A stretch of DNA of 64,000 nt from Ricordea florida (lineage: Eukaryota > Cnidaria > Anthozoa > Corallimorpharia > Ricordeidae). This document shows, piece by piece, positions 30,189 to 59,192 of the stretch (its first letter is position 1; every line of letters begins with the position of its first letter). The DNA lies in the NCBI GenBank assembly GCA_949710005.1, contig OX453273.1, positions 9,894,246-9,958,245 of the forward strand. The letters are read 5' to 3'. The position numbers and the translations under genes are program-made. The notes below the pieces were generated by a model. That model had not been told where the DNA came from. It worked only from the letters and a program-made list of their open reading frames with translations, and made no database searches.

Positions 30189-30827
30189 ATGGCGAGCGAA
30201 AGCGGGTGCTTCTCTGATAGTCAATCTGAATTTTCCAGCGTCAGTGATGAGCTTTCTCCGCTAGAATCAAGCTATTCACAAAGTGAATCCGATGGAAGTG
30301 ACAAAGAAACCAGGGATCTCTCGGGAAAAGGTTCGAAATCTGATAGAAAGAGAAAAACCTTAGCTGGTCGGACGAGCGCCAGTGGGAGTCGTGGAAAGAA
30401 ACAAGTCCAAACTACCGATAAAAAAGTGGCAAAGGGACTTAGCTTTTCTGAAATGGATGAACTGTCATTATGGGTATTCGACGTATTCTCTAATGAAGAA
30501 GCAATGAAAGTGGAAAGCGAATTGCGGCAACGACTTTTGAAATCACTAAGATTAAAAGCCTTCGACGAGCGCCGGAAATTCGCCTCACACTTGACAAGCG
30601 AAGCACAAAGGGGTAATTTTAGTCTTTTGATTACTGGATTTTGTAGGAAATTCGCGACATTGTCAAAAGAGTGCTATAGGACTGGAGTAATAAAAGAGAG
30701 AAAGGCTGCTTTTTCTGTAGCATGGATGAAACTTTTAGCCAATTTCCAGCCCGGAAAGAAGTCCCAAGAAAGGATTATTCTCGAGCGCTGTTTGCCGGCA
30801 CACAACATCTTTTCCCACGAGGACGTT
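30189..30827 (+). pseudogene. 5' part of outer-transposon gene 1, truncated by Polinton
   Basis: 213 codons from an ATG 193 bp inside the transposon end to the exact Polinton junction. The N-terminal ~80 residues are Ser/Asp/Glu-rich then Lys/Arg-rich and probably disordered; after that comes an alpha-helical segment with many charged residues. The reading frame is open, but from 30828 it runs into the Polinton terminal repeat and stops at 30926, so the protein is cut. Its continuation starts at 45108 in the same frame. I did not recognise the family; a transposon accessory or DNA-binding protein is a guess. Confidence 0.8.
30823..30827. repeat. Polinton target duplication, left copy
   Basis: ACGTT directly precedes the Polinton end and also directly follows its right end at 45103-45107. 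Polintons usually make 6-bp duplications; only five bases match here (GACGTT on the left, ACGTTC on the right). Confidence 0.8.
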
Positions 30828-31101
30828 AGTAGTAGGGTGGAGGGGGGATACCCGGGATTTTTTTATCGGGAATTTATCAAGGATTTTATCAAGGAATTTA
30901 TCAGGTATTTTAATTTGCATCATTAATTTATCAGGAATTTATCAAGGATTTTATCAAGGAATTTATCAGGTATTTTAATTTGCATCATTAATTTATCAGG
31001 AATTTATCAAGGATTTTATCAAGGAATTTATCAGGTATTTATCAAGGATTTCAAAAAATAAAATTAAAAATTGGTTTAAAGATATAACATGAAATATCAA
31101 A
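30828..31101 (+). repeat. Polinton left terminal inverted repeat
   Basis: Starts AGTAGTAGGGTGG and reaches the ATG of the 31102 gene. It contains three head-to-tail 65-bp units (GCATCATT at 30917 and 30982), each built of TTTATCAAGGA and TTTATCAGG-like sub-motifs. It differs from the right repeat by a 12-bp insertion near 31038 and a few A-tract length changes. Homology continues past the ATG into both terminal genes at lower identity. Confidence 0.93.
31075..31080 (+). promoter_or_regulatory. TTTAAA box of the left-end gene
   Basis: TTGGTTTAAAGATATA, 21 nt before the ATG at 31102; identical in the right terminal repeat upstream of the polymerase gene. Confidence 0.6.
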
Positions 31102-31779
31102 ATGGAACGGCAAACAGTAAAAGAACTGGAGAAGCTAAATGTGAAACAATTGAAAGCCCTAGCCAAAGAGCTAGGTATTAAAGGATATTCTAGAATGCTT
31201 AAACCCGAACTCATTGAAACTATAACACAACCACAAGTACTAAACATGAATATTATTGAAGAACCTATACCTGATATTAATGTTACCACCACTAAAAACC
31301 ACAAACAACCTATCAATCAAGTATTGGAAAAACTAAATGTAGAACACATGAGAGCCCTAGCCAAAGAGCAGGGTATTAAAAAATATTATTGGATGACTAG
31401 ACCTAAACTAATTGAAGAGTTAGGTGATATAGACATAGACCCAAACAAATTATCGAATATTATTGATAAAATAACAACAAAAAAGTATAAGTGTATTCAT
31501 GGAGGGTTTAAATATCAATGTAAAGAGTGTCACGGATCTCAAATATGCCCCCATAATCAAAGGAAATCACGTTGTAAAGAATGCAACGGTGGTAGTATTT
31601 GTGAGCATAAACGGGAGAGGTATATGTGCAAAGACTGTAAAGGTAAAGGAATATGTATTCATGGAAAACAAAGATGTTTTTGTAAGTTATGTGGAGGATC
31701 TCAAATATGCGAACACAACAAACAGAAGGCGCATTGTAAAAAGTGTCGCAAAACACAAGATACACAACAAAAACATTAA
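31102..31779 (+). CDS. SAP-like domains plus zinc-binding Cys/His repeats
   Basis: 225 aa, function unknown. Residues ~1-45 and ~75-110 are two copies of a SAP/Rho-N-like helix-extended-helix segment (LKALAKELGIKGYSRM), a fold usually linked to nucleic acid binding. Residues ~130-218 hold five 18-residue repeats of the form C-x-H-x6-C-x2-C with a linker such as NGGSI or GGSQI, which should bind five metal ions. From memory, similar Cys/His arrays occur in large DNA viruses and algae; this was not checked. The first SAP-like segment is shared with the polymerase at the other end. It is probably a nucleic acid-binding regulator or replication factor of the Polinton. It is not one of the standard core genes. 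Confidence 0.85.
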   Translation: MERQTVKELEKLNVKQLKALAKELGIKGYSRMLKPELIETITQPQVLNMNIIEEPIPDINVTTTKNHKQPINQVLEKLNVEHMRALAKEQGIKKYYWMTRPKLIEELGDIDIDPNKLSNIIDKITTKKYKCIHGGFKYQCKECHGSQICPHNQRKSRCKECNGGSICEHKRERYMCKDCKGKGICIHGKQRCFCKLCGGSQICEHNKQKAHCKKCRKTQDTQQKH

Positions 31780-32011
31780 GTTATATAACGCAAGTCAGTG
31801 TTACATAACAAAATTTACCTTGTGACTCATCTACAGAATTTACATTGACGTAATAACATTCCTGAGCGACGTTAGAAACCAGCCTTTTAAAAGTAAACTT
31901 CAAATCCACTTTCCAACTTGCTTGTTGCTATGTCGTAAAAGTATGTAATCTATTGTTATACACGTGCGTACTAATTTACACACAATAATAATCACGTGAA
32001 ATACTCATGAA

Positions 32012-33559
32012 CTACCGAAATAGATACCACGCTAATCCACCAGCGACAACTATAAATGTTAATATATTCTTTTCATGTTGCGTTGAGTCTATATTATTTT
32101 CGTGTTTCGTTGAGTATGTTTGCGTTGAGTCTGTTTTCATTGGTGGTTTTGGTTTCGTTTCAGATATATGCGGTAACTTTAACTTTGAAGATCCCATGTT
32201 ATGTTTTATTCCAACCTGTTTTGCTTCAGTGTTTAGGGAATTATTCACTCCAAAATTCATATCGCTACTAGCTTTCATAAGTTTGTTATTAAAACCAGTC
32301 ACGCTCTCAGTGTTGATTATCATATTACTAGGCATTAGCCATACACCAGGAGCAATAGCTAAATCAAGCCGTAATTTCGCTTCCTGTATAGCTAATTGAT
32401 ACCTTTGGATAGAACTAGAAATGTCATTTTCAATAACACTACTCTCAAAAAGGGATAAGAATTCTTGTTGAGTTTCTATCGCTCCACCACCATTGCCGTA
32501 AATTGAGTTTCTAGTGTTGACTTGCGCTCCCAATATACAGTAAACAAAAGCTTCAACAGATCGATTCAATCTACCAAGTCCAGCTTTAGTGAGTCCATGA
32601 CCACTTGTTGGGATAAACCAAGCATATTGGAAATCAGCAAAATCGTCATTACGGATGAATGAGATGAGATTACCTTTTTCTTTCTTACCTCCCTCATCAG
32701 CAAATTTACCACCTTCACCAGGCCACTGATCAGCTTCATCATCGTAATTCCTTACAATATGAACATTTTGATTTCCTCCACCTCTTCCATTGTATCCAGC
32801 ACCATAATCAATAAATATATCACCCAATCCTCCGTTTCTACCACCTTTCCATCTAAAATCAGAATTATTACCAATTCCAAATTCAGCGCACAATCGTTGA
32901 TATGCGACTTTGTTGTAAGGATTGTTGTTTATTACAAAGGGTTGCTTACCAGGTAGGGGAAGACTCAATTCATAAAGTATTCGTCTTATGGTGAAATACA
33001 CATGAAATTTAATGAAGCTACTCACGACTTTGGGATAGTTGAGACTCTCAAAAGGACTTATACCACAACCAGAGGTCGCACACCATACTGCAAAGTTTAG
33101 TTGTTGAGGCCAATAATTCATATCGGGTGCGTTCAACCATTTTCTACTCTGTTTACCAAATTTGAAAGTCACAACTTGGGATGTAAATATGTTTCTCATC
33201 TTTGCTGTGAATTTCTTAGTATTAGATACGTATATATCCAGTGAGGTAAGCATTTTTGTAATATTACTTGTAAAGTCATCAAAATCAATTGCAGGTATTG
33301 GATAAGATCGATTGGTTATAGTTAAACTCTTTGGGAATGAACTCAATGCATAATCATTCAATCCTAAATCTTTCCACAACAGTCTTTTTAAACGGGGTGA
33401 TAGGTCTTCAATCCATGTTTTTCCAGTGGGATCATCATTAGACATGATTGTTGTACCATTAACTTTCCACTTAATGTATCCACCATACGGATCAGCTACA
33501 ACTTCGAATTGACCTGTATCAGCCTTTGGATATCTTTCTCTGAAATCATTGAGTAACAT
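32012..33559 (-). CDS. Polinton protein with C-terminal membrane anchor, unknown function
   Basis: 515 aa. I do not recognise the family. Residues 1-230 are mixed alpha/beta with many aromatic residues. The middle (~240-310) is rich in Gly and Asp, including RWKGGRNGGLGDIF and GPGEGG-like runs. Residues ~315-430 form a second compact part (TKAGLGRLNRSVEAFVYCI). A disordered Lys/Thr/Ser-rich stretch precedes a hydrophobic C-terminal helix (FIVVAGGLAWYLF). It is the last and largest gene of the virion block, so a structural role such as spike, penton-associated or membrane-anchored virion protein is inferred. TTTAAA lies 29 nt before the ATG. Confidence 0.85.
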   Translation of the reverse strand: MLLNDFRERYPKADTGQFEVVADPYGGYIKWKVNGTTIMSNDDPTGKTWIEDLSPRLKRLLWKDLGLNDYALSSFPKSLTITNRSYPIPAIDFDDFTSNITKMLTSLDIYVSNTKKFTAKMRNIFTSQVVTFKFGKQSRKWLNAPDMNYWPQQLNFAVWCATSGCGISPFESLNYPKVVSSFIKFHVYFTIRRILYELSLPLPGKQPFVINNNPYNKVAYQRLCAEFGIGNNSDFRWKGGRNGGLGDIFIDYGAGYNGRGGGNQNVHIVRNYDDEADQWPGEGGKFADEGGKKEKGNLISFIRNDDFADFQYAWFIPTSGHGLTKAGLGRLNRSVEAFVYCILGAQVNTRNSIYGNGGGAIETQQEFLSLFESSVIENDISSSIQRYQLAIQEAKLRLDLAIAPGVWLMPSNMIINTESVTGFNNKLMKASSDMNFGVNNSLNTEAKQVGIKHNMGSSKLKLPHISETKPKPPMKTDSTQTYSTKHENNIDSTQHEKNILTFIVVAGGLAWYLFR

Positions 33560-33588
33560 TTTATTCTTTATGTTGATAATAAGATTTT

Positions 33589-33594
33589 TTTAAA
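33589..33594 (-). promoter_or_regulatory. TTTAAA box of the 515-aa gene
   Basis: GATTTAAAAA on the minus strand, 29 nt before the ATG at 33559. Confidence 0.5.
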
Positions 33595-33660
33595 TCAACA
33601 CCGTTCTTTTCTAATACCAACCTCATAATTCCATCCTACAGGCGTTTTCTCAAATGACAT
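33595..33660 (-). CDS. Possible 21-aa micro-ORF
   Basis: An ATG three bases after the stop of the 193-aa gene opens a 21-codon frame (MSFEKTPVGWNYEVGIRKER, then Cys) ending just before the next gene's TTTAAA box. It fills a gap of about 100 nt in an otherwise tightly packed block. Small basic peptides exist in related virions, but nothing here proves translation. Confidence 0.3.
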   Translation of the reverse strand: MSFEKTPVGWNYEVGIRKERC

Positions 33661-33662
33661 TT

Positions 33663-34244
33663 TCAACGTACGGGAGTGGTTAGCTCCTTTAATATTTCTC
33701 GCATCTGATTCATATTTAAGTTTTTTTCTGTATCTTTCCGGTTTTTTTGACGGATTTCGAGTTTTAGTTTTTCAAACTTGTCCACCTCTGCTAAAATTAT
33801 CGAAAATTCTTGGTCAGAGATAGCGTTATCTTTCAGTGCCTTTGAAACCAAGTCGTGAATGGTATTTACTTTTGCTTTTGCTAGAGAAACTGTCTGTTCA
33901 TGTTTACTAACTTTATGTGAAAGTCGTTTAGAAGCCGCACCGCATCCAACCGATATTCCACCACAAAGACCACCAACCGCTCCTAATGGGATACCAACAA
34001 CAGCACCAAAACCAGTAAGAGATGTTCCAAGTCCACCTGCAGATAGGATAACTGAAAACACCCCACTACCAACACTGATTTTAGTAAATATCCCCCTAGC
34101 TCTATTGTATTTTTTCCTAACATCCTCGTAATGTCTAATTTCCTTCTGAAGATTATGTACTACTTCACACGATTTTTGAAGCCTGAAATTATTTGGATCT
34201 CCTTTCATAGGAACTTGCGGATAAATTCTACTGTACTCATCCAT
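33663..34244 (-). CDS. Polinton protein with Gly-rich hydrophobic hairpin and coiled coils
   Basis: 193 aa. Residues ~20-50 and ~105-175 are predicted charged helices or coiled coil. Between them, residues ~55-100 form a long Gly/Ala/Val-rich hydrophobic segment (FSVILSAGGLGTSLTG) that could fold as a membrane hairpin. The layout resembles membrane-active minor virion proteins, but no family was recognised. The ATG directly follows a run of twelve A, and the upstream gene overlaps it by 40 nt in another frame, so translational coupling or slippage is possible. A variant box (TTTAAG on the plus strand at 34272) lies 27 nt upstream. Confidence 0.8.
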   Translation of the reverse strand: MDEYSRIYPQVPMKGDPNNFRLQKSCEVVHNLQKEIRHYEDVRKKYNRARGIFTKISVGSGVFSVILSAGGLGTSLTGFGAVVGIPLGAVGGLCGGISVGCGAASKRLSHKVSKHEQTVSLAKAKVNTIHDLVSKALKDNAISDQEFSIILAEVDKFEKLKLEIRQKNRKDTEKNLNMNQMREILKELTTPVR

Positions 34245-34621
34245 TTTTTTTTTTTGCTGACAGGTTCGTTATTTAAGTTAGGCTTTTTTCCATTTTCATC
34301 AATAACCCATAAAGTAAAGTAGTTGACTGGATTTTTGGTTTGTGGAACTTTTAAACAAGGATGTTTTTCATATGGTGGAATAACAGCTAGTAATTGTGAG
34401 GGTTTAAGTTCTAAATTTTCACCGATGGGTTTACAACAATTTGAATATGAAGACTTTAACTCTATAAGATCACACATTAAGTATAAAGGATTTGAATAGT
34501 TTGCTTTACGAAGGTAACCAAATTGTAATTGTATCTCTTTTACATTGGTTAAGGGTGGATCCAGATAAATTCTTGTTTCAGGAGTTAGCATAGTGATAGA
34601 TAGAAAAATTGTATCATTCAT
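34205..34621 (-). CDS. Small beta-rich Polinton protein, possible minor capsid
   Basis: 138 aa. Short alternating hydrophobic stretches (LTPETRIYLDPPL, NYFTLWVIDENG) suggest a compact beta sandwich. With the place in the virion block, this makes a single jelly-roll minor capsid or penton-like protein plausible. Polinton pentons are often larger, so this is only a candidate. The last residues (SKKKKW) are encoded by a twelve-A run shared with the start of the next gene. TTTAAA lies 29 nt before the ATG, inside the 3' end of the upstream gene. Confidence 0.8.
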   Translation of the reverse strand: MNDTIFLSITMLTPETRIYLDPPLTNVKEIQLQFGYLRKANYSNPLYLMCDLIELKSSYSNCCKPIGENLELKPSQLLAVIPPYEKHPCLKVPQTKNPVNYFTLWVIDENGKKPNLNNEPVSKKKKWMSTVEFIRKFL

Positions 34622-34635
34622 TATTTTGTTTTTAC

Positions 34636-35601
34636 TTAGCGCCTCTTCTTTTTAAATTGTTCCACAAAATATAGAACCACAGCCACTATCAACAACCAAG
34701 CGTTCTTACCTAAAAATCCAATAACCTCACCTGCAGTCTTGAACAGAAAGCTTACGATAGCTCCAACCATTCCAGGCAATATTTCACCGAGTTTCTTACC
34801 AATAGTTTTCAAACCGTTACCAACACCTTTACCCAATTTGGTTAGACCTTTAGAAAGATTAGAAACGATAACACCAATAACCACACCTACAGCACTCACA
34901 ACGGCAAAGACTGTAAAACCGTACTTTTTAAAGATGGCCTTCACACGATCCCGTAATGACATTTTTTCCTGGATTTGCTCAATCTCACGCTCCCGGTTAG
35001 CTATCTCATTATCATCATCAGCAATTTCTCTCTCTAGAGTCTCTATTCGGCTACTATCCTCTGGAATATTAAGCGGCTTATTTCTTAGGAATTTTATTTC
35101 CTCCTTCTTTTTGTTTTGTGATTCTTTTCTCTTATCGATCTCACGATAATTAGCTTCCACAACTTCTTCTGCTCTAGGACCTAAATCATTTTTCAATTGA
35201 TTGGGAAGTATTTTACTTTTATTTTTTAATGATTGTAATTCACCATCTAGAAGAACATAATCAGCTGGATTTACTCTTCTTAAATTAACAACTACTGATT
35301 TTATTCCATCTCCAATATCTTTGAAGAATGTTATGAATTTTGAAGTTTTTGCATGTGGATAGTACTTTTTGAGCTCTTTTTCAGCATCATTTTGATCTCT
35401 CATTCTTGTATCTAACAAGGGATTTTTTTCACTACCACCAAATGAAGTTCCTTCTTCATCATCAAGGTCAATTGGAAGAGTGGTGGATGTCTTTGTGGTT
35501 GGAGTCATATAAAATGTATCATTCCCATCATCATCACCCACATTATATGGATCATTTAGTTTAGTTGGATCTAAATCCGGTATATCTGAACCTTCTGCCA
35601 T
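34636..35601 (-). CDS. Polinton coiled-coil protein with C-terminal membrane segments
   Basis: 321 aa. Residues 1-70 are acidic and disordered (DDEEGTSFGG). Residues ~130-215 are a strong coiled coil rich in Glu, Lys and Arg. Residues ~222-320 hold hydrophobic segments (FAVVSAVGVVIGVIVSNL, WLLIVAVVLYFVEQF) around a Gly/Lys amphipathic stretch with KxLGKGVGNGLK-like repeats; the tail is basic (KKKRR). The layout suggests a membrane-active or DNA/membrane-linking minor virion protein. The family was not recognised. Confidence 0.85.
   Translation of the reverse strand: MAEGSDIPDLDPTKLNDPYNVGDDDGNDTFYMTPTTKTSTTLPIDLDDEEGTSFGGSEKNPLLDTRMRDQNDAEKELKKYYPHAKTSKFITFFKDIGDGIKSVVVNLRRVNPADYVLLDGELQSLKNKSKILPNQLKNDLGPRAEEVVEANYREIDKRKESQNKKKEEIKFLRNKPLNIPEDSSRIETLEREIADDDNEIANREREIEQIQEKMSLRDRVKAIFKKYGFTVFAVVSAVGVVIGVIVSNLSKGLTKLGKGVGNGLKTIGKKLGEILPGMVGAIVSFLFKTAGEVIGFLGKNAWLLIVAVVLYFVEQFKKKRR
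34651..34656 (-). promoter_or_regulatory. TTTAAA box of the 138-aa gene
   Basis: AATTTAAAAAG on the minus strand, 29 nt before the ATG at 34621. It overlaps Phe-Lys codons of the upstream gene, so it may be chance. Confidence 0.4.
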
Positions 35602-35627
35602 AATTTTTTACTCATCAGTAAGAAATC

Positions 35628-35633
35628 TTTAAA
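35628..35633 (-). promoter_or_regulatory. TTTAAA box of the 321-aa gene
   Basis: CAGTTTAAAGATTTC on the minus strand, 26 nt before the ATG at 35601. Confidence 0.6.
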
Positions 35634-35649
35634 CTGGTCACACAATTAA

Positions 35650-36042
35650 TTAAAATAATTTACTAACCATATAACCCAATGCCAACATACCACCACCTAC
35701 ATATGCCATCTCCCCCATCTTTTGATTGCTACTAGGTCTATAATAATCAGAGAATTTTGGTTCATGTGTTTGACTATACAATTTCAAAGCTTCATCTGTA
35801 TTCGAAATATTTTGTGAAGCCTGGTGTTTAGCATCTTTCTTTTGAGAGTACCAATCAATGAGATTCTGTCTTTTTTCCTGGTATGTAGCATAATCTTTTT
35901 GATATTTTTCTATTGCCTTGTCGTGTCGTATTCGCTCTGAATCTGTTTTATCACCTGAGAGATATTTTGCAAGATATGAGCCACCAACGAAGGTAGTAGC
36001 ATTCAAAATAGCTCCACCAACCATCATTGCTATTGCTGCCAT
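35650..36042 (-). CDS. Small Polinton membrane protein, 130 aa
   Basis: Begins with a Gly/Ala-rich hydrophobic helix (MMVGGAILNATTFVGG), followed by a charged central helix (~residues 35-75, many Lys, Gln and Tyr) and a Tyr-rich linker. It ends with a second hydrophobic helix (MAYVGGGMLALGYMVSKLF). Both ends could insert in a membrane. I think similar proteins accompany other cnidarian Polintons, but this is memory only. No exact TTTAAA box; TTTAAT lies close to the ATG. Confidence 0.8.
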   Translation of the reverse strand: MAAIAMMVGGAILNATTFVGGSYLAKYLSGDKTDSERIRHDKAIEKYQKDYATYQEKRQNLIDWYSQKKDAKHQASQNISNTDEALKLYSQTHEPKFSDYYRPSSNQKMGEMAYVGGGMLALGYMVSKLF

Positions 36043-36048
36043 AAGTCT

Positions 36049-36267
36049 TTAATTTGGTAAAATCTTTTGATCCTCTAAATATGTTTTTAGGTACATACTA
36101 CCGGATAGGACAGCGACCCATTTAGCATAGTTTGTAATACTTGAGGATGGATCGTTTATGAATGATTCTTTCATAGCCTTTTTAGCTACATATCCAACTC
36201 CAGCGGCTAATCCGATAATGACGGCTGAATCAGTAACAGTTTTTACAAGTTTATTATCAGTTGACAT
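36049..36267 (-). CDS. Small Polinton membrane protein, 72 aa
   Basis: Two hydrophobic segments (AVIIGLAAGVGYVAKKA and WVAVLSGSMYL) separated by a short polar loop. The stop lies only 6 bp before the next gene's ATG. Function unknown; a membrane or virion component by context. Confidence 0.75.
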   Translation of the reverse strand: MSTDNKLVKTVTDSAVIIGLAAGVGYVAKKAMKESFINDPSSSITNYAKWVAVLSGSMYLKTYLEDQKILPN

Positions 36268-36293
36268 GATTTTTATTGAGGATATAGAAAACC

Positions 36294-36299
36294 TTTAAA
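36294..36299 (-). promoter_or_regulatory. TTTAAA box of the 72-aa gene
   Basis: CTAGTTTAAAGG on the minus strand, 26 nt before the ATG at 36267. Confidence 0.6.
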
Positions 36300-36308
36300 C
36301 TAGTTTCC

Positions 36309-36716
36309 TCAGAGCATTACTATTTTAGGAGTTGGTTGGGTAGGTTGGGTAGGAATATTTGAGGGTGGAACTTTAGTTGGAACGTGAGATAAATCAACTA
36401 TTCTGTTTTTGTAGTATCTCATAAACATGTCAACTGCAGTAAACCCTATTCCAACAATAGATAACACAGTAGTAAAAGATAGCTCTGGAATCCATGCTTT
36501 AGATTCGCTCTCTTCATTGGAATTTTCTTCCTGTTTAGTCTCCGATTGTTCCTTTTCACGTTTCATTTCCCTAGCTAATGCTTCTTTGGCTTTTTTGTTA
36601 TATTCTGCTAGTTTCTTACCGGCAGCAACCTTTTTAGGATCTTTCTCTTTCTTTTTTGGATCTTTCTTTTCAGGTATGGGATCCATTGTAATTTGTTCAA
36701 CAACTTCATCAGACAT
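36309..36716 (-). CDS. Lys-rich Polinton protein with one membrane segment
   Basis: 135 aa. Residues ~15-70 are strongly charged, with KKDPKKKEKDPKKV-type stretches, then Glu-rich. A single hydrophobic segment (TTVLSIVGIGFTAVDMFM) covers about residues 83-100, and the tail is Pro/Thr-rich. The basic half could bind DNA and the hydrophobic segment a membrane. Function unknown. TTTAAA lies 29 nt before the ATG. Confidence 0.8.
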   Translation of the reverse strand: MSDEVVEQITMDPIPEKKDPKKKEKDPKKVAAGKKLAEYNKKAKEALAREMKREKEQSETKQEENSNEESESKAWIPELSFTTVLSIVGIGFTAVDMFMRYYKNRIVDLSHVPTKVPPSNIPTQPTQPTPKIVML

Positions 36717-36745
36717 GATTATTTTATTTCACAAAGTAAAGAATC

Positions 36746-36751
36746 TTTAAA
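36746..36751 (-). promoter_or_regulatory. TTTAAA box of the 135-aa gene
   Basis: TGATTTAAAGATTC on the minus strand, 29 nt before the ATG at 36716. Confidence 0.6.
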
Positions 36752-37270
36752 TCAGTTGTGCTCAGTGACCTGCTCAGTTTTGTTAGAATCATCAGTATTT
36801 GTACTTGAAACTTCTTGTATTTTGTTGATTTTAATGTGCTTTACAACCTGAAATAGTCCGCTGGCAAGTGCTACTAATCTTCCACCTTTTAATGCTAAGA
36901 GACCTACAAAGTTTGTCAGTTCACGATTAACCAACTCATCATTCTTCAAGTCTTTACAAAGCGCTTCTATGTCATCCACAGGAACCATGTAAGAAATGAC
37001 ATGAGAAACTAATTGAAGAGATGAATCTACTAATCCACCACTAATTTTCTTACCTAATACTGTCTGATATCGATTATAATATTTTTCAACATCTTTTACC
37101 GTGAGTTTCTTTATATCACCGAGACTCATATCAACACCTAAATATTCCTTTGTAGTACCAAGAGATGCGAGAATAGCTAGTGATTCTTGTTTTATTTCAA
37201 TATCATCATTATATTTTACCACATCTTTTACCTCAGTCTTTTCTTCTATATAATCTTCAACTTCTGTCAT
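36752..37270 (-). CDS. Polinton helical protein, 172 aa, unknown
   Basis: The N-terminal ~25 residues are acidic, followed by predicted helices (SLGDIKKLTVKDVEKYYNR) and a hydrophobic helix near residues 122-145 (FVGLLALKGGRLVALASGLF). The C-terminus is polar. It lies directly downstream of the packaging ATPase gene, 31 nt after it, inside the virion block. No family recognised. Confidence 0.8.
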   Translation of the reverse strand: MTEVEDYIEEKTEVKDVVKYNDDIEIKQESLAILASLGTTKEYLGVDMSLGDIKKLTVKDVEKYYNRYQTVLGKKISGGLVDSSLQLVSHVISYMVPVDDIEALCKDLKNDELVNRELTNFVGLLALKGGRLVALASGLFQVVKHIKINKIQEVSSTNTDDSNKTEQVTEHN

Positions 37271-37300
37271 CTTGCAATTTTCTAATAAAACATAGATTCT

Positions 37301-37306
37301 TTTAAA
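37301..37306 (-). promoter_or_regulatory. TTTAAA box of the 172-aa gene
   Basis: TGATTTAAAAGAATC on the minus strand, 30 nt before the ATG at 37270; overlaps the ATPase stop codon. Confidence 0.55.
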
Positions 37307-37928
37307 TCACCGAAGGAATCTCTAAATAACATTGGAATGGATAACGTAAACATAAACAGAGTCTAGAATATTTTTCAGTTTTCAGCATTTCTACAAACTT
37401 TTTACATGTTTTAGAGTCTAAATCACCTCCATAATCTTCGAAAATCATCTTCATACCTTTCTGTGATGGATTATGGAATGTAACCACACAAGCGACATTT
37501 TCACGGAATGGTTTTGCAATGGATGTTAATTGCTGAGTGAGAACCCACACTGATAATCCATGATGCCTTCCAGAGAATGCTAAATCTATAAACTTGTTCG
37601 ATCGTTTCTTTAGATCTTTCGATACAGCACAATCGTCTAAAATTACTAGTGTATTTGTACCAGAGAACAAAGTTTGACAATCAGTTAATAACTCGTTAAT
37701 CTCATCGCTGTTACTAGCATCTGGTGATAATACTAAGAAACGTTTATCTCCGTGAGCAAATTTATGATAGGTTTTATTTTTAGAATAAGTTGGACATATG
37801 AGAATAATATATTCAAAAACTTTTTGGAATGGTCCCCTCAGTTGATCTGTGATATATTTTGTCTTTCCACAATTTGTTGGACCTGTTATAATGCAATGAA
37901 AAGGAATTTTATCTCGTAATTCTTCCAT
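37302..37928 (-). CDS. Genome-packaging ATPase (A32/FtsK-HerA type)
   Basis: 208 aa P-loop ATPase expected to drive DNA into the capsid. Walker A is GPTNCGKT at residues ~16-23. Walker B is TLVILDDC at ~93-100, ending in Asp-Asp. A downstream VWVLTQQ at ~128-134 fits the sensor Gln of this class. Length and motif order match the short A32-like ATPases of Polintons and related viruses. It sits next to the major capsid gene, 7 nt downstream of it, as expected for a morphogenesis module. No exact TTTAAA box precedes it, so it may be read from the capsid promoter. Confidence 0.93.
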   Translation of the reverse strand: MEELRDKIPFHCIITGPTNCGKTKYITDQLRGPFQKVFEYIILICPTYSKNKTYHKFAHGDKRFLVLSPDASNSDEINELLTDCQTLFSGTNTLVILDDCAVSKDLKKRSNKFIDLAFSGRHHGLSVWVLTQQLTSIAKPFRENVACVVTFHNPSQKGMKMIFEDYGGDLDSKTCKKFVEMLKTEKYSRLCLCLRYPFQCYLEIPSVI

Positions 37929-37935
37929 CTTTTAA

Positions 37936-39174
37936 CTAATACATAATTGATCTTAAGTTTGAATTCATGATCTCCATCAACGCGTCGGCTACCACAAACA
38001 TGTAACAGGTGATATTTCCTGATCCTCCAACTTCTCTTTTCATTTCAAGTTTTACTCCATCTCTTGTGTTGTTCAAGGCCAGCCCTCCTCCATGAATACT
38101 ATTGTCGGGGTGAGTTCTCAAGTCAATCCATATAGCAAACTTGTTAGCATAAAAATCATTTAGCTTGACACCCTCTCTACCGAAACGTTTCTTTACCGAA
38201 TCCCAGAAGTCTGACGGTTCCATTCCCTTGGAGTATAGACGGTTTGGTATACCGTCAACGTTAATCTTGATTGATGTAATATTCGGATTGACAAACCTTT
38301 CAGAATCTCTTGCTCCTCCACCGTATCCATCTGTGAACAAGCACAATATCCCAGTCATTGATCTCCTAGGTAGATTAATGTTCTCGTTTATGAAACTGTC
38401 ATTAGGTTTGGAGATGGTAAAAGTTTTGTGGAGAAGGACATTCTCGTAAAAGAATACTTTACCAACCTGATAAGCTGACTGAGCCTCATTAGCTAAGTAT
38501 TCACTTGAGATACAAGAATATTCCAACTCAAGGTTTGCGATTTTGTAAGTTGGAGTTTTGGTCGTGTCAGAATAAACAACAATATCATAAACTGGGGCCA
38601 GTGTAATCTCAAAGATTAGTGGATGAGGTAACGCCTTTGGATAAAAAACCCCATGATTGTTGAGAATAGGATGGTTTAGTGGGATACGGTACTTGGTGTT
38701 GTATACTGCTGCAAGAACCACTTCCTTATCTTTTCCTGAGGTTACCTTGTCACCCGCTTTTGTCCTAATCTTCCTTATGTTTTCAGAAGAAATACCTTGT
38801 TTTATTCCATCCTCACGATCTTCAGCTGTTAAGTATAAGTCATGGTAGGTTTGAAAGAGATCGTATCTTTGAGTATCCTGTAGTGTTTCTCCACCAAAAA
38901 GAACCCTGAGTCTGGATACAAGGTTACTGCCTACGTTATTCACAAGGGTGTTGTTAGCATGACCTTCAACAGTCAAGTCAAATAGTAGAGATACACTTCC
39001 TGGGACAATCACTACATTCTGAGAAAGTTTTGGAATATTTATATATAAGGTTTCTCCAGGACTAGCGGATGATGGATTTAGTGTAATTCGATTCAGTGAC
39101 GATTCCGCTTTCAAACCGAGAGGCTCTAGTGGAATCCTGTTTGGATTAATTTTTTCAGGTATAGCTTGTGACAT
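37936..39174 (-). CDS. Major capsid protein, probable double jelly-roll
   Basis: 412 aa with short alternating beta stretches throughout and few helices. Two halves each show jelly-roll-like spacing: ~20-230 with RIPLNHPILNNHG and PLIFEITLAP, and ~235-410 with LPRRSMTGILCLF and FAIWIDLRTHPDNS. The position next to the packaging ATPase and the block it heads support assignment as the Polinton major capsid protein. It is somewhat shorter than many Polinton capsid proteins. The start is the only ATG before the Pro-rich N-terminus, and TTTAAA lies 29 nt upstream. The call rests on context and strand pattern, not on a structural match. Confidence 0.78.
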   Translation of the reverse strand: MSQAIPEKINPNRIPLEPLGLKAESSLNRITLNPSSASPGETLYINIPKLSQNVVIVPGSVSLLFDLTVEGHANNTLVNNVGSNLVSRLRVLFGGETLQDTQRYDLFQTYHDLYLTAEDREDGIKQGISSENIRKIRTKAGDKVTSGKDKEVVLAAVYNTKYRIPLNHPILNNHGVFYPKALPHPLIFEITLAPVYDIVVYSDTTKTPTYKIANLELEYSCISSEYLANEAQSAYQVGKVFFYENVLLHKTFTISKPNDSFINENINLPRRSMTGILCLFTDGYGGGARDSERFVNPNITSIKINVDGIPNRLYSKGMEPSDFWDSVKKRFGREGVKLNDFYANKFAIWIDLRTHPDNSIHGGGLALNNTRDGVKLEMKREVGGSGNITCYMFVVADALMEIMNSNLRSIMY

Positions 39175-39203
39175 ATTTTATTTTAAGGATAGGTAGAATA
39201 TTC

Positions 39204-39209
39204 TTTAAA
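39204..39209. promoter_or_regulatory. TTTAAA box between capsid and integrase genes
   Basis: Palindromic TTTAAA in the 49-bp divergent spacer: 29 nt before the capsid ATG (minus) and 14 nt before the integrase ATG (plus). The flanking AATTTAAAGAAT fits the minus-strand consensus better. Confidence 0.6.
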
Positions 39210-39223
39210 TTAGTAACGAAAAC

Positions 39224-40198
39224 ATGTTATCAAAAATATACTATTCAACTTATGGATATTGGAAAGGGTATTCTGCCATTCCTAAATTAGCTGAAAAAGC
39301 AAAAGTTAGTGAAGATGAGGCTAAAAGATGGCTTGAGAAACAGGCGATGTGGCAAATCTATCTACCAGCTCCAAAATATATACCTAGGCCGCATTGGAAT
39401 GTGGAAAAACCGAATCAGATTCACCAAGCGGATTTATTATTTTTACCACATGATAGAGTAGGAAGAAAGACATATCGATATGCTCTGGTTGTGATTGATA
39501 TAGCTAGTCGATACAAAGATGCAGAACCATTAACATCAAAAGAAAGTCATGAGGTATCAAAACCCTTCAGTAATATTTACTCCAGAAAGTTAAAATATCC
39601 CAAAACATTAATTGTTGATCCTGGAAGAGAATTTATGGGAGATGTAACAAAACTTATGAACATACATAATGTAAACATCCAGAGAAGTGAAGCTGGAAAC
39701 CATAGAGCTCAAGCATTTGTTGAAAGAGCAAATAGAACATTATCAGAAAAACTATTTAGTCATCAATATGCTCAAGAAATGATTAGTGATGATAGGTCTA
39801 GAGTATGGGTGAAACGATTACCAGCTATTTTGAAAACTTTGAATAGTCAACCTACACGCCTTACTGGTAAAGAGCCTGAGAAAGCTATAAAACTGAAAGA
39901 GGTTGATATTGATCCTCCAAAGTATAAAAGAGTTGTTGGATATGATGAGGTTAGACTACCACCTGGTGTTAAAGTTAGATACTTACTCGCTCCGGGTGAA
40001 CTTGAGGGTGGTGAACGAAGACGAGCTACGGATCCCATTTGGAGTATTCAGGTTTATGATATATCACGTAGTGTGGTTTCATCTAATCAGCCAGTGTTGT
40101 ATCATTTACTAGATGGCCCGAGGCGTGGTTTTGTGAGGGAAGAACTTCAGGTTGTACCAGACGATACTGAGCTGCCGCCTAATTCTGTGATGAAATGA
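39224..40198 (+). CDS. Polinton integrase (retroviral type, DDE)
   Basis: 324 aa integrase that joins element ends to host DNA. The N-terminal ~60 residues form a helical region without a clear HHCC zinc motif. The catalytic core carries D70 (HQADLLFL), D132 (VDPGREFMG) and E167 (FVERANRTL), with 34 residues between the second and third, as in RNase H-fold integrases. The C-terminal ~80 residues end in a beta-rich module (VLYHLLDGPRRGFVREELQVVP) like the SH3/chromo-type tail of such enzymes. It diverges from the capsid gene and ends 1 bp from the polymerase stop. All catalytic residues are present, so the enzyme may be active. Confidence 0.95.
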   Translation: MLSKIYYSTYGYWKGYSAIPKLAEKAKVSEDEAKRWLEKQAMWQIYLPAPKYIPRPHWNVEKPNQIHQADLLFLPHDRVGRKTYRYALVVIDIASRYKDAEPLTSKESHEVSKPFSNIYSRKLKYPKTLIVDPGREFMGDVTKLMNIHNVNIQRSEAGNHRAQAFVERANRTLSEKLFSHQYAQEMISDDRSRVWVKRLPAILKTLNSQPTRLTGKEPEKAIKLKEVDIDPPKYKRVVGYDEVRLPPGVKVRYLLAPGELEGGERRRATDPIWSIQVYDISRSVVSSNQPVLYHLLDGPRRGFVREELQVVPDDTELPPNSVMK

Positions 40199-40199
40199 G

Positions 40200-43100
40200 C
40201 TAATACAAAGGCTCTGTGTGAATTCCGTCGTCTGCCACAATACGTTTATCGTAGTAGGCGCTCAATCCTAATTTATTTTGAGTGTATGTTACAATTTGAT
40301 TATTATTAACTCTAAAGCCGGTATTTTTTACTTTATCTATCACCCCGTTCAAAGCTTCGTAGTATCGATTCCATGTCATATCATTTTGCTTTCTGGAGGT
40401 TCCTTTGCAACTAAACTTTGTTTTTCTGTTCGGGTCTTCGGCGTAATAACATTTTGGTGCAAGAGCAATCATTCGGACCCCCTTAAACTCCAGCCTGAAC
40501 AGCCCGGGTGTCTTGTCGTGGTATTTTGAGGTTGATAGGAATTTTTCTTTCCCCCCACTAAAGTATTCTTTTTGTAGTTCAGGTTTTATAATCTTGTCAA
40601 AATTTTCATCTGAAAGAGCCATGTACATGCTATCGGTGTCCATCTGAATAAGTTCAAAATCACTTCGATCTACATATTTATCAAGGAAGTCGTGGTAAAA
40701 TTCCAACATTCGAAGTTTAGCTAATTGGTATACTGCGATACCACATTGATAAGGTCGATTTACGTTTACCTGACGTTTTCGTTCTTTTATTTCATATGTT
40801 TCATTGATGACTTCCAAATCTTCAAAGAAAGGACTTCTAAAAGCCTTATCAACCTCCTTCTCGTCTTTAGTATATCTTATTTTTGTGTGTCTTTCGAGAT
40901 CTTCGATCATTTTTCCATAGAATGAATTTCCTTTTAGTTTGTAAGTATCGCCCAGTTCTTTGCAACCTTCATACTTGGAATTCAGTTTTTCAATCAACAC
41001 TTGAAGGTCTTTGTTCTCTTCAATCAATGGGACTATGGAAGGGAATTGCTTCAATTCATTAATAATGGTGTCGACATCATCTCTCTTGTTGTCATTAACA
41101 GCTTTGCGTAACTTTGCGGTCATAACCTCGATATCACCATCTCTTCTAGCGCTACTGACTTCATCTGGGAACCATTTAAAAGGTCTTCCTGCTTCATATT
41201 TTAAAATCTTGTGTACAGCTGTTACCTCTAAACCATGATTAATATACCATTTCAGTAGGGGTGTATATAGCAGGATCTTATCCGCCCTTGTCACCCCAAG
41301 CAATTTTTTAGTACCTTTTAGAGTTTTTCTGCCAGTGTCTTTTTGGTATTGTTTCATATGTTCAGGTACTAGATCTTCTGGAATACTATCTACAACGAAC
41401 AACGGTGAAAACTCTTCAAATTTCTCTCTGAGATTGTTAGGGACATGGATATCCACTTGACAAAATCCGAAAAGGTTATTAGCGATAATGTCTTCACAAA
41501 ACTTTTTAACATATTCAGAATCTGTTGGCTTTAATGGCTCAATGAATTCCTCTTTACCACATGGCATTTCTTGACCCGAGCAATTTAGATATAAACTGTT
41601 CGCATCATAACCACTGACAGACTTACAAGTTTTTGGGTCTTTATATTTATGGGGGCGAATATTTGTCATATCTTTCTCTGCATAGCGTGTAAACACAATA
41701 CTAGGCCCTCCAACCATACCTGTTTTCAAGAGTTCATAAGCCTTGTTTTTAGGACATTCTGTACATTCTTTCCTTACCTTGGAGCACTCTTTACAATCCT
41801 TTTTACTACAAGTCTTAGCACATTTGTGAAAGCAAGGTTTACCTGGAGCATATAAGGCAGGCTCGTCTCTCTTATTCTTTTTTATGGCTTTATTAAGCAC
41901 ATACATCATTGAGATACCTGGGATAGATACAGCATCTTTTAATATATCAATTTCATCTGGGTAATATTGCTCCCGTGTCTTTTCTAAAGCTTCTACGAAA
42001 GGTACAACGTCAGCTAGGTTATACTCCCTCAACCAATCCATCATGGTAACACAACCCCTCTTTTGAAATTCGATCTTAAATTCTTCATATTCTTGATGTG
42101 TCACTGTGATTTTCTGATGGAGGCTTGAGTAAAAGTCTTTATATTCCACAGGGCCTACGTGAGAAAGCTTGTCATAACTATCCAACCATTCGTAAGGAAA
42201 GACAAGTTTTTGTGTTTTACAGTTGTTTGCTTTACACCACTTATCAAAAGAGAGTCCCGGGGCTAAGTAGGACATTGCATCTAAAAATTTAAAATGGTCA
42301 GTTGTCAGGAACATATATCTATTCTCTTTCTTCGCCACAAAAATCTCTCCAGCTTGCTCGGTCATGTGTTTTACAAAATGTTTTTTGATCATATTGATAT
42401 CATACTTGCCACTATTGAACCCTAAAACAGGAACTTGATTACTCCACTTTCTGTACTGCTCTAACACGTTCTTGGGAATAGAATCTTCATCAGGCAGCCG
42501 GTATTCTCTTCCAACTTTTTCGATAATGACTTTGCGTCGGTGTTCTAAATCTGTAATAAAGTCTTTGATAATCTCTTCAGGGTTTGAGTTTACAAGAAAG
42601 GTGGGTTCATTTGTAAAATTATCGGTGATAGCAACACTAACTGGAATATGTTTGTTACTGAAAGTTAGGTCGTCAGTCATCTGTTGAGAAAGTTTGGAGA
42701 GCGATGCTTCAAAATCGTAAACAATAAAATATGGGTATGGGGTAAATTTCTTTTCAAGTATCATATCACTTAATTCAGGTTTTTCATGCTCCCAAACCGA
42801 TACAACATTATACCCCAAGTCTTTGATCATCTTTTCCATTTTGAGAGTTTCATTGTATCTCTTTTCATCGTAACTTGAACAGCGGCAGCCGTGCCATTTA
42901 CACCCATAGAATTGAAAAACTGTCTTAGTCTCAGGCTCGTATCCATCAACCAAAATCTCCTTTTTACCGCTCTTCACACACCGCTCACCCCCACGCCCAC
43001 AGAGAGCGTGATGAATGTGTTTTCCCATATGTCTAGCCTGTTCTTCGATCCATCGACACCCTGAGTAACTAAATTGGGTATTACCTCCATAAAACACCTT

Positions 43101-44837
43101 TTCTGAACTGTTCATGATGTTTTTGAACTTTTCCCCTTTGCATATCAATTGTGTCTTTCCTCCCGAACATCTTTTTTCTGTGATGTGTCTATTGTAATTA
43201 TCATGTCTGTTAAATCTTTGCTCACACCCAGAACATTCCCAGAGTTCTGTTAAAAGATTTATATCCTTGATGTAGAAACAGTGACCATTATAATAGCGTC
43301 CGATATCTAAAAATGGTAAATTATTTTTGAACTGGTCTTTCACAAACACTATTTTCCAAACCTTTTGGTTTTTTGGTTCGTACATACGGATGTTAATGGA
43401 AAACATCTTAGCAATACCCTCAAAATCAACATGTTTCGTTTTTCGCACGTCTGAAGGTTTCAATTCTTGGTTATCATAAAAATCTCGGGCTAGTTTTAGA
43501 GCCTTTCTTGTAGTATCCTCTGCAGGTCTAGGGATATTATCACGATAGGCAAAGTAAATAACGAGACACCTCCAGACACATAGATTGTCTTTCTTATTGT
43601 CGATGGCGTGAATGCATTTCTTATTACGTAGCCAATCTGGTAAGGGTCCACACCCCATTAAAGGCTCGTTGCTGTGAATAACTTTTACGGTTATCTCAGT
43701 AAACTCAACTCTGCCTTGGTATATGCCTGGGGTTTTAACGACCTCTGTTGCTGGTAGGTACGCTTTGATCCACACTTCTGCATTCTCCAAATCCAACCTT
43801 TTGGTCTCACACCTTTCGATATATCTCTCAATTTCAGATAAACTTGTAAAAGTCCCCTCCCCACTAAGTGTTTTGCAATAATCAGCTTTTTCTCCACCCC
43901 CACGATGAATTTTAGATGAAAAACTGTAAACAATCCTTACACGCATCTCTATTTCAGGTTTGATTTTGTCAAAAACCATGTTTGATACGTCATTATTTAG
44001 ATCAGCATTAAATTCGTGGGTATTTGGGTTTGGTGGGTTTTGTTCTTCCCTTTCCTCACTCCCTCCAGTGTTAGTAAATCTAAAAGTTATTGGAGGCCGT
44101 AGTGTGGCTGGGGTAGGTTTTTGTGGTTGGTTGGTGGTATTTTTTCCAGAGGTTGGGGTTGGTTTTTGCTTCTGGTTGGGAATATTTTTTCTGGGGGCTG
44201 GGATGATGATTTTTTTATTGGTGAGATCTGTAAGCGAATCATAAAACTTTTTTCTGTCCGCCACTTTGAAAGTTTTGTTTATTGTTTTAGGGGCGGGTCT
44301 TTGCGACTGATTAGGTATATTTTTATTAGTGGTAACTGTAAGCGAATCATAAAACTTTTTTCTGTCCGCCACTTTGAAAGTTTTGGTTATTGTTTTAGTG
44401 GCGGGTCTTTGCGACTGATTAGGTGTATTTTTATTAGTGGTAACTGTAAGCGAATCATAAAACTTTTTTCTGTCCGCCACTTTGAAAGTTTTGTTTATTG
44501 TTTTAAGGGCTGGGATAGGTGTGGGTTGGTGAAGTTTAGTACGTGGGGCTGGGATAGGTGTGGGTTGGTGAAGTTTAGTACGTGGGGCTGGGATAGGTGT
44601 GGGTTGGTGAAGTTTAGTACGTGGGGCTGGGATAGGTGTGGGTTGGTGAAGTTTAGTACGTGGGGCTGGGATAGGTCTTTGTGGTTGGTTTTGTATAGGT
44701 TCTTCAATAATATTCGTGTTTAGTACTTGTTCTTTTTTTATAGCTTCGATGAGTTCTGCTTTAAGCATTCTAGAATATCTTGGAATACCCAGCTCTTTTG
44801 CAATGACTATCAATTGTTTTACTGTTTTCCGTTCCAT
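40200..44837 (-). CDS. POLB: Protein-primed family B DNA polymerase with extra N-terminal domains
   Basis: 1545 aa replicative polymerase of the Polinton. Exonuclease motifs: DFEA (~707), GFNSGKYDIN (~805), YNLADV (~938). Polymerase motifs: A YDANSLYL (~1075), B GNSFYGK (~1302), C MDTDS (~1400). All key acidic residues are present. N-terminal additions in order: SAP/Rho-N-like segment (1-35) shared with the 31102 protein; four PIPAPRTKLHQPT repeats (~50-110); three ~36-aa repeats around KTFKVADRKKFYDSLT (~110-225); an OTU/papain-like-looking segment with NLCVWRC and GHCFYI (~420-525); a C2H2 finger (~530-555); and a nuclease-like motif VDGYEPET...CKWHGC (~625-650). It is longer than many Polinton polymerases. 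The start abuts the terminal repeat. Confidence 0.96.
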   Translation of the reverse strand: MERKTVKQLIVIAKELGIPRYSRMLKAELIEAIKKEQVLNTNIIEEPIQNQPQRPIPAPRTKLHQPTPIPAPRTKLHQPTPIPAPRTKLHQPTPIPAPRTKLHQPTPIPALKTINKTFKVADRKKFYDSLTVTTNKNTPNQSQRPATKTITKTFKVADRKKFYDSLTVTTNKNIPNQSQRPAPKTINKTFKVADRKKFYDSLTDLTNKKIIIPAPRKNIPNQKQKPTPTSGKNTTNQPQKPTPATLRPPITFRFTNTGGSEEREEQNPPNPNTHEFNADLNNDVSNMVFDKIKPEIEMRVRIVYSFSSKIHRGGGEKADYCKTLSGEGTFTSLSEIERYIERCETKRLDLENAEVWIKAYLPATEVVKTPGIYQGRVEFTEITVKVIHSNEPLMGCGPLPDWLRNKKCIHAIDNKKDNLCVWRCLVIYFAYRDNIPRPAEDTTRKALKLARDFYDNQELKPSDVRKTKHVDFEGIAKMFSINIRMYEPKNQKVWKIVFVKDQFKNNLPFLDIGRYYNGHCFYIKDINLLTELWECSGCEQRFNRHDNYNRHITEKRCSGGKTQLICKGEKFKNIMNSSEKVFYGGNTQFSYSGCRWIEEQARHMGKHIHHALCGRGGERCVKSGKKEILVDGYEPETKTVFQFYGCKWHGCRCSSYDEKRYNETLKMEKMIKDLGYNVVSVWEHEKPELSDMILEKKFTPYPYFIVYDFEASLSKLSQQMTDDLTFSNKHIPVSVAITDNFTNEPTFLVNSNPEEIIKDFITDLEHRRKVIIEKVGREYRLPDEDSIPKNVLEQYRKWSNQVPVLGFNSGKYDINMIKKHFVKHMTEQAGEIFVAKKENRYMFLTTDHFKFLDAMSYLAPGLSFDKWCKANNCKTQKLVFPYEWLDSYDKLSHVGPVEYKDFYSSLHQKITVTHQEYEEFKIEFQKRGCVTMMDWLREYNLADVVPFVEALEKTREQYYPDEIDILKDAVSIPGISMMYVLNKAIKKNKRDEPALYAPGKPCFHKCAKTCSKKDCKECSKVRKECTECPKNKAYELLKTGMVGGPSIVFTRYAEKDMTNIRPHKYKDPKTCKSVSGYDANSLYLNCSGQEMPCGKEEFIEPLKPTDSEYVKKFCEDIIANNLFGFCQVDIHVPNNLREKFEEFSPLFVVDSIPEDLVPEHMKQYQKDTGRKTLKGTKKLLGVTRADKILLYTPLLKWYINHGLEVTAVHKILKYEAGRPFKWFPDEVSSARRDGDIEVMTAKLRKAVNDNKRDDVDTIINELKQFPSIVPLIEENKDLQVLIEKLNSKYEGCKELGDTYKLKGNSFYGKMIEDLERHTKIRYTKDEKEVDKAFRSPFFEDLEVINETYEIKERKRQVNVNRPYQCGIAVYQLAKLRMLEFYHDFLDKYVDRSDFELIQMDTDSMYMALSDENFDKIIKPELQKEYFSGGKEKFLSTSKYHDKTPGLFRLEFKGVRMIALAPKCYYAEDPNRKTKFSCKGTSRKQNDMTWNRYYEALNGVIDKVKNTGFRVNNNQIVTYTQNKLGLSAYYDKRIVADDGIHTEPLY
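44250..44700 (-). repeat. Coding tandem repeats in the polymerase gene
   Basis: Two in-frame arrays inside the polymerase N-terminal region: four 39-bp units (GGTGTGGGTTGGTGAAG on the plus strand) encoding a Pro-rich 13-residue repeat, and three ~108-bp units encoding the KKFYDSL repeat. Units are nearly identical at DNA level, so the arrays are young and likely to vary in copy number. Confidence 0.9.
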
Positions 44838-45102
44838 TTTGATATTTCATGTTATATCTTTAAACCAATTTTTTAATTTTATTTTTTTGAAATACCTGAT
44901 AAATTCCTTGATAAAATCCTTGATAAATTCCTGATAAATTAATGATGCAAATTAAAATACCTGATAAATTCCTTGATAAAATCCTTGATAAATTCCTGAT
45001 AAATTAATGATGCAAATTAAAATACCTGATAAATTCCTTGATAAAATCCTTGATAAATTCCCGATAAAAAAATCCCGGGTATCCCCCCTCCACCCTACTA
45101 CT
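44838..45102 (-). repeat. Polinton right terminal inverted repeat
   Basis: Reverse complement of the left repeat with the same three 65-bp units. It ends directly upstream of the polymerase start codon, so the repeat carries the promoter region of that gene. Confidence 0.93.
44859..44864 (-). promoter_or_regulatory. TTTAAA box of the polymerase gene
   Basis: TTGGTTTAAAGATATA on the minus strand, 21 nt before the ATG at 44837, within the right terminal repeat. Confidence 0.6.
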
Positions 45103-45107
45103 ACGTT
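45103..45107. repeat. Polinton target duplication, right copy
   Basis: ACGTT, matching 30823-30827. Confidence 0.8.

Positions 45108-59148: not shown

Positions 59149-59192
<44 letters not shown>

Follow-up and report, generated by a model that had tools for sequence, protein, structure and literature searches.

A probable Polinton/Maverick-type virus-like element with a short capsid protein in the corallimorpharian Ricordea florida

Introduction

Polintons have been argued to be viruses. As of 2021, Maverick particles had not been observed (PMC8097293). The closest described systems are two Polintons of Nematostella vectensis, whose capsid proteins fall into the "group X" clade of Polinton-like viruses (PLVs) and which were proposed to be chimeric elements (PMC4642659). 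One named Polinton of this species with a group-X capsid is P-3_NV (PMC4028283). In vertebrates, 134 intact Mavericks were found to have target repeats of 6 base pairs (bp), the search set having been built from perfect 6-bp repeats (PMC8097293). Here, we describe a single element that fills positions 30828-45102 (14,275 bp) of a 64,000-nucleotide stretch of Ricordea florida DNA (assembly GCA_949710005.1, contig OX453273.1, positions 9,894,246 to 9,958,245; hereafter the window). We take it, with a probability of about 90%, to be an integrated virus-like element of the Polinton/Maverick type, having a short capsid protein similar to those of PLVs and of Paramecium bursaria chlorella virus 1 (PBCV-1).

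The combination of a polymerase, an rve integrase and AGT-type ends is the layout of animal Polintons (PMC8097293, PMC4642659), and the element shows it too, with a polymerase-like protein. An origin of this DNA from a protist or alga, groups in which integrated PLV-type viruses are common, would agree with the PBCV-1-like capsid but is improbable given this layout. The N. vectensis Polintons, compared by their published description only, likewise combine an rve integrase, a Polinton-type polymerase and a PLV-type capsid. Vertebrate Mavericks share the AGTAGT/ACTACT ends and the intronless open reading frames (ORFs), and the window element lies within their ranges of terminal repeat (46-1,447 bp) and total length (12,723-24,620 bp). 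They differ by their protease, by a minor capsid protein that has been named and by target repeats of 6 bp (PMC8097293), whereas here neither protein was matched or identified and the repeat is 5 bp long. PLVs are similar in their double jelly-roll capsid protein and their ATPase; they are described as lacking the maturation protease, for which no match was found here. Unlike this element, they are described as having no rve integrase, with one exception (PMC4642659). Integrase, capsid and ATPase genes are also shared with Mavirus-type virophages (PMC4642659). The element fits the published account of cnidarian Polintons with a PLV-type capsid (PMC4642659, PMC10120064), and it provides a full-length example of a type that is mentioned there briefly.

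Results

Terminal repeats and target site

The assignment to Polintons/Mavericks is based on the ends of the element, the integrase, the packaging ATPase and the fold of the capsid protein. The features of the ends are as follows (aa, amino acids).

30823..30827, no strand: left copy of the target repeat, acgtt, 5 bp (sequence)
30828..31040, + strand: left arm of the terminal inverted repeats (identical core), AGTAGT at its start (repeat search, sequence)
31041..31270, + strand: inner stretch of the left arm, with a likeness of 82-91%, reaching the opening codons of the 225-aa ORF
44693..44889, - strand: inner stretch of the right arm, reaching the opening codons of the polymerase gene
44890..45102, - strand: right arm of the terminal inverted repeats (identical core), ACTACT at its end (repeat search, sequence)
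45103..45107, no strand: right copy of the target repeat, acgtt, 5 bp (sequence)

A repeat search of the window returned inverted repeats at 30827-31040 and 44890-45103, with arms of 214 nucleotides (nt) that are 100% complementary. The outermost base of each arm belongs to the target repeat, leaving an identical arm of 213 nt for the element itself, and each terminal repeat contains 2.8 copies of a 65-bp tandem unit. AGT-type ends with terminal inverted repeats are those of a Polinton/Maverick. Beyond the identical core, the likeness of the arms continues inward at 91% (76 nt) and then at 82% (147 nt); this drop may reflect an evening out of the ends during copying.

The coordinates given in the original prediction were correct to the base. 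Its near-identical terminal repeats and still visible target repeat were confirmed as well, the arms being identical over 213 nt and acgtt being present on both sides. Its view of the insertion as recent holds only as an upper bound on age: with 0 differences in 213 nt, the end-to-end divergence since insertion is at most about 1.4% (rule of three).

Coding capacity and genes for copying, integration and packaging

Thirteen ORFs span 13,169 of the 14,275 bp of the element (92%), and neighbouring ORFs are separated by 232 bp at most (31780-32011). Stop-to-stop ORFs of at least 150 aa number 11, while 200 mononucleotide shuffles gave 0.05 on average, which excludes chance; the longest has 1548 aa in the real sequence and 179 aa in the shuffled ones. 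In the whole window, 12 start-to-stop ORFs reach at least 150 aa, and nine of these are genes of the element. Of the other three, one lies within the polymerase gene in antisense, one starts in the left flank and enters the terminal repeat on that side, and one is found immediately to the right of the element. The genes that bear on the assignment are listed here.

31102..31779, + strand: 225-aa ORF, two Rho_N (SAP-like) stretches, then a Cys-rich repeat region (Pfam Rho_N, E 1.9e-13)
37302..37928, - strand: 208-aa packaging ATPase, Pox_A32 family (Pox_A32, E 9.7e-13; terminase large subunit, E 1.6e-9)
37936..39174, - strand: 412-aa major capsid protein, modelled as a double jelly-roll (structure prediction)
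39224..40198, + strand: 324-aa rve-type integrase (Pfam rve, E 1.1e-6; IS481 transposase, E 6.5e-13)
40200..44837, - strand: 1545-aa polymerase-like protein with a Rho_N start, two in-frame tandem-repeat blocks and family-B motifs (motifs by eye)
44212..44676: in-frame tandem repeats in the polymerase gene, with 2.8 copies of a 108-bp unit (44212-44510) and 4.4 copies of a 39-bp unit (44507-44676)

The integrase is of the rve type found in Polintons/Mavericks. Similarly, the ATPase is of their A32/FtsK packaging type, its Pox_A32 match being above the family cut-off. PDB sequence searches with these two proteins returned nothing useful. In the 1545-aa protein, strings at residues 708, 807, 939, 1075, 1300 and 1398, chosen by eye, occur in the expected order for what we take to be the family-B exonuclease and polymerase motifs. 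Two further strings, at 417 and 518, could presumably supply the Cys and His of a vOTU-like domain. Such a domain is described in PMC11071308. The two tandem arrays, with 94% matches for the 108-bp unit and 100% for the 39-bp unit, are both in the N-terminal part of the protein, and the region 44212-44676 is likely variable in length.

The 225-aa ORF (+) and the polymerase gene (-) both read inward from opposite ends of the element, and a similar Rho_N module opens the two proteins (Pfam E 1.4e-11 in the 1545-aa protein). This common start is explained by the inverted repeat, which reaches the coding starts of both genes (31102-31270 and 44693-44837). The coding part of the repeat has diverged to 82%, while the outer repeat is identical.

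Major capsid protein

The 412-aa protein was predicted to fold as a double jelly-roll, as expected of a Polinton/Maverick capsid protein. The original prediction had made its reading depend on this fold, and the structure model agrees with it. The model is closer to the type of PBCV-1 and other nucleocytoplasmic large DNA viruses than to hexon. Against a viral structure library, rank 9 among the 50 matches listed was "Penton capsid protein [Adintovirus sp.]"; the PDB sequence search with this protein returned nothing useful. The capsid protein begins and ends like its closest relatives. As it has hundreds of relatives, this nearly complete copy is a good candidate for studies of the capsid protein alone and of transcripts.

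Two observations were made among the 120 capsid relatives listed. Cluster P0067 (66% identity) contains 4980 member sequences, the next largest containing 254, and its size suggests that an element has been strongly amplified in one or more genomes. In addition, P0005 (82% identical) and P0025 (75%) have the same longest-contig size, 31,594, and may represent two elements of the capsid-bearing kind on one contig.

From the biology of the family, the terminal repeats would be the starting points at which a protein-primed family-B polymerase, encoded by the linear element itself, copies it. Insertion would be the work of the rve integrase, whose staggered cut would give rise to the short target repeat, while the capsid protein would build a particle together with the A32-like ATPase, and the two would fill it.

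Evidence against the Polinton/Maverick assignment

Several results weigh against this assignment. The target repeat has 5 bp and not the 6 bp of vertebrate Mavericks; it is possible that the sixth base has mutated since insertion or that the 5-bp stagger is real, one copy having been seen. No polymerase profile was matched in Pfam by the 1545-aa protein or pieces of it, nor was a polymerase found among the PDB sequences, where a match at E 0.0095 is to the Rho start domain. Searches of PHROGs with the C-terminal 866 residues, and of a phage collection by tblastn with the C-terminal 486 residues, gave no polymerase match either. For the integrase, the rve match is 3 bits below the Pfam curated cut-off, and the IS481 transposase match reaches 48.8 bits for a cut-off of 224. 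The capsid protein matches Capsid_N at only E 0.014 in Pfam. Among IMG/VR viral contigs, no relative was confirmed and no free virus form was found. Finally, no protease was matched when the 13 annotated ORFs were all compared with Pfam, although a divergent one is possible; an adenain/Ulp1-type protease is identifiable in 74% of Polintons (PMC4028283).

Protease, penton and the small 138-aa gene

The remaining ORFs of the element are listed below.

32012..33559, - strand: 515-aa ORF, conserved, hydrophobic C-terminal segment (relatives search; model poor)
33663..34244, - strand: 193-aa ORF, no family above cut-off (profile scans)
34205..34621, - strand: 138-aa ORF, small conserved protein without the C-terminal tail (relatives, alignment)
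34636..35601, - strand: 321-aa ORF, no family above cut-off (profile scans)
35650..36042, - strand: 130-aa ORF, no family above cut-off (profile scan)
36049..36267, - strand: 72-aa ORF, no family (profile scan)
36309..36716, - strand: 135-aa ORF, rich in Lys and Glu, no family above cut-off (profile scan)
36752..37270, - strand: 172-aa ORF, no family above cut-off (profile scan)

For the 515-aa protein, 1616 relatives were found, the best at 93% among the 120 listed, and its start and end match those of the closest ones. Its fold prediction from 40 sequences was poor (predicted local distance difference test score 50.1), and the resulting model had 0 matches at E 1e-3 in the viral structure library; the PDB sequence search returned nothing useful. 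When the 120 listed relatives of the capsid protein were crossed with the 120 of the 515-aa protein, longest-contig sizes of 12,278, 15,804, 16,053 and 13,958 were common to both, which suggests that the two genes occur together in at least four relatives.

The penton (single jelly-roll minor capsid protein) was not identified, the 515-aa model being poor and the 138-aa family giving no useful profile or PDB match. For this small family, 14 members searched against Pfam gave two single-member matches (best E 0.019), and the best E in PDB was 1.4. The "full virion gene set" of the original prediction is not supported as worded, there being no protease match in Pfam for any of the 13 ORFs and no penton identified.

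The lack of a protease match could be a property of the lineage. The element would then be chimeric, combining a capsid module of the PLV type with a Polinton polymerase and integrase, and its particle kit would be complete except for the small gene; we consider this somewhat better than an even bet. The absence of an adenain/Ulp1 match in 13/13 ORFs agrees with it, as does the 92% coverage by ORFs, with a largest gap of 232 bp that is too small for the usual protease gene. It also agrees with PLVs being described without a protease and with the possibly chimeric nature of the two sea-anemone Polintons with a group-X capsid (PMC4642659), as well as with an account in which, among animals, only cnidarian capsid genes fell outside the main Maverick-Polinton cluster (PMC10120064). 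However, a very divergent protease is possible among the eight ORFs without a family, and the capsid protein is a candidate member of group X.

The 138-aa gene raises another explanation, in which a once complete copy is losing its genes and is now a genomic fossil or dependent on other copies. A C-terminal tail is present, with small variations, in 22 of the 25 relatives of the 138-aa protein and absent from the window's protein, whose frame continues across a run of A and enters the 193-aa ORF at its start. Judged from the alignment, the function of this gene is likely lost. The large genes are nevertheless open, the terminal repeats are identical, and the capsid and 515-aa proteins start and end as in their closest relatives. 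Moreover, the tail is also absent from three of the 25 relatives, and its absence could be variation. An internal loss of about 95 residues was considered as a further sign of damage and dropped: a 220-221-aa form with about 95 extra middle residues occurs in 4 of the 13 aligned relatives, whereas the other nine lack the same residues as the window's protein does, so this absence is not decay of the window copy. Taken with these points, decay appears to be the less probable explanation, although a serious one.

We lean towards the protease-free, PLV-capsid lineage for what is a well-preserved element of a known kind, with complete ends and open large genes. The ORF lengths of the original prediction were as stated, and its open gene set stands for the polymerase-like protein, the integrase, the ATPase and the capsid protein. 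By contrast, "structurally intact" is not supported, because the 138-aa gene appears damaged and is without the tail that 22 of 25 relatives possess. With this apparent damage, and with no protease or penton found, the window copy may or may not make particles. A broader proposal is tentative and rather doubtful: that the element belongs to a widespread, numerous Polinton lineage with a short PLV-like capsid, no Ulp1/adenain protease, a Rho_N/SAP-like module that came to both terminal genes by copying via the inverted repeats, and a 5-bp stagger.

Insertion site and surroundings

The left end of the element cuts an ORF of the flank.

30189..30827, + strand: flank ORF cut by the element's left end (flanks joined in silico)

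When the flanks were joined with one target repeat kept, the left-flank frame stayed open past the junction (codon 213) and met a stop 20 codons on. A random join stays open for 20 codons about 4 times in 10, and an interrupted host gene was dropped as a proven result; the joined sequence is weak evidence that the element interrupted a reading frame here. Two flanking ORFs were compared with Pfam, one having no match and the other a single weak one (E 0.025). Outside the element there are 52 stop-to-stop ORFs of at least 85 aa; of the 10 that were scanned, none had a Pfam match at E 0.01.

At 59139-59211 of the window there is a tRNA-Ala gene whose anticodon is GGC (Rfam, 59.9 bits). Eukaryotes do not usually have this anticodon, and the gene may belong to a tRNA-derived repeat. 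Further right, a large inverted repeat (59618-60565) has 150-nt arms that are 98% complementary, each made up of 20-bp tandem units. Another (61006-61358) has 72-nt arms at 96% with 16-bp units. Both look like non-autonomous elements with tandem-repeat ends.

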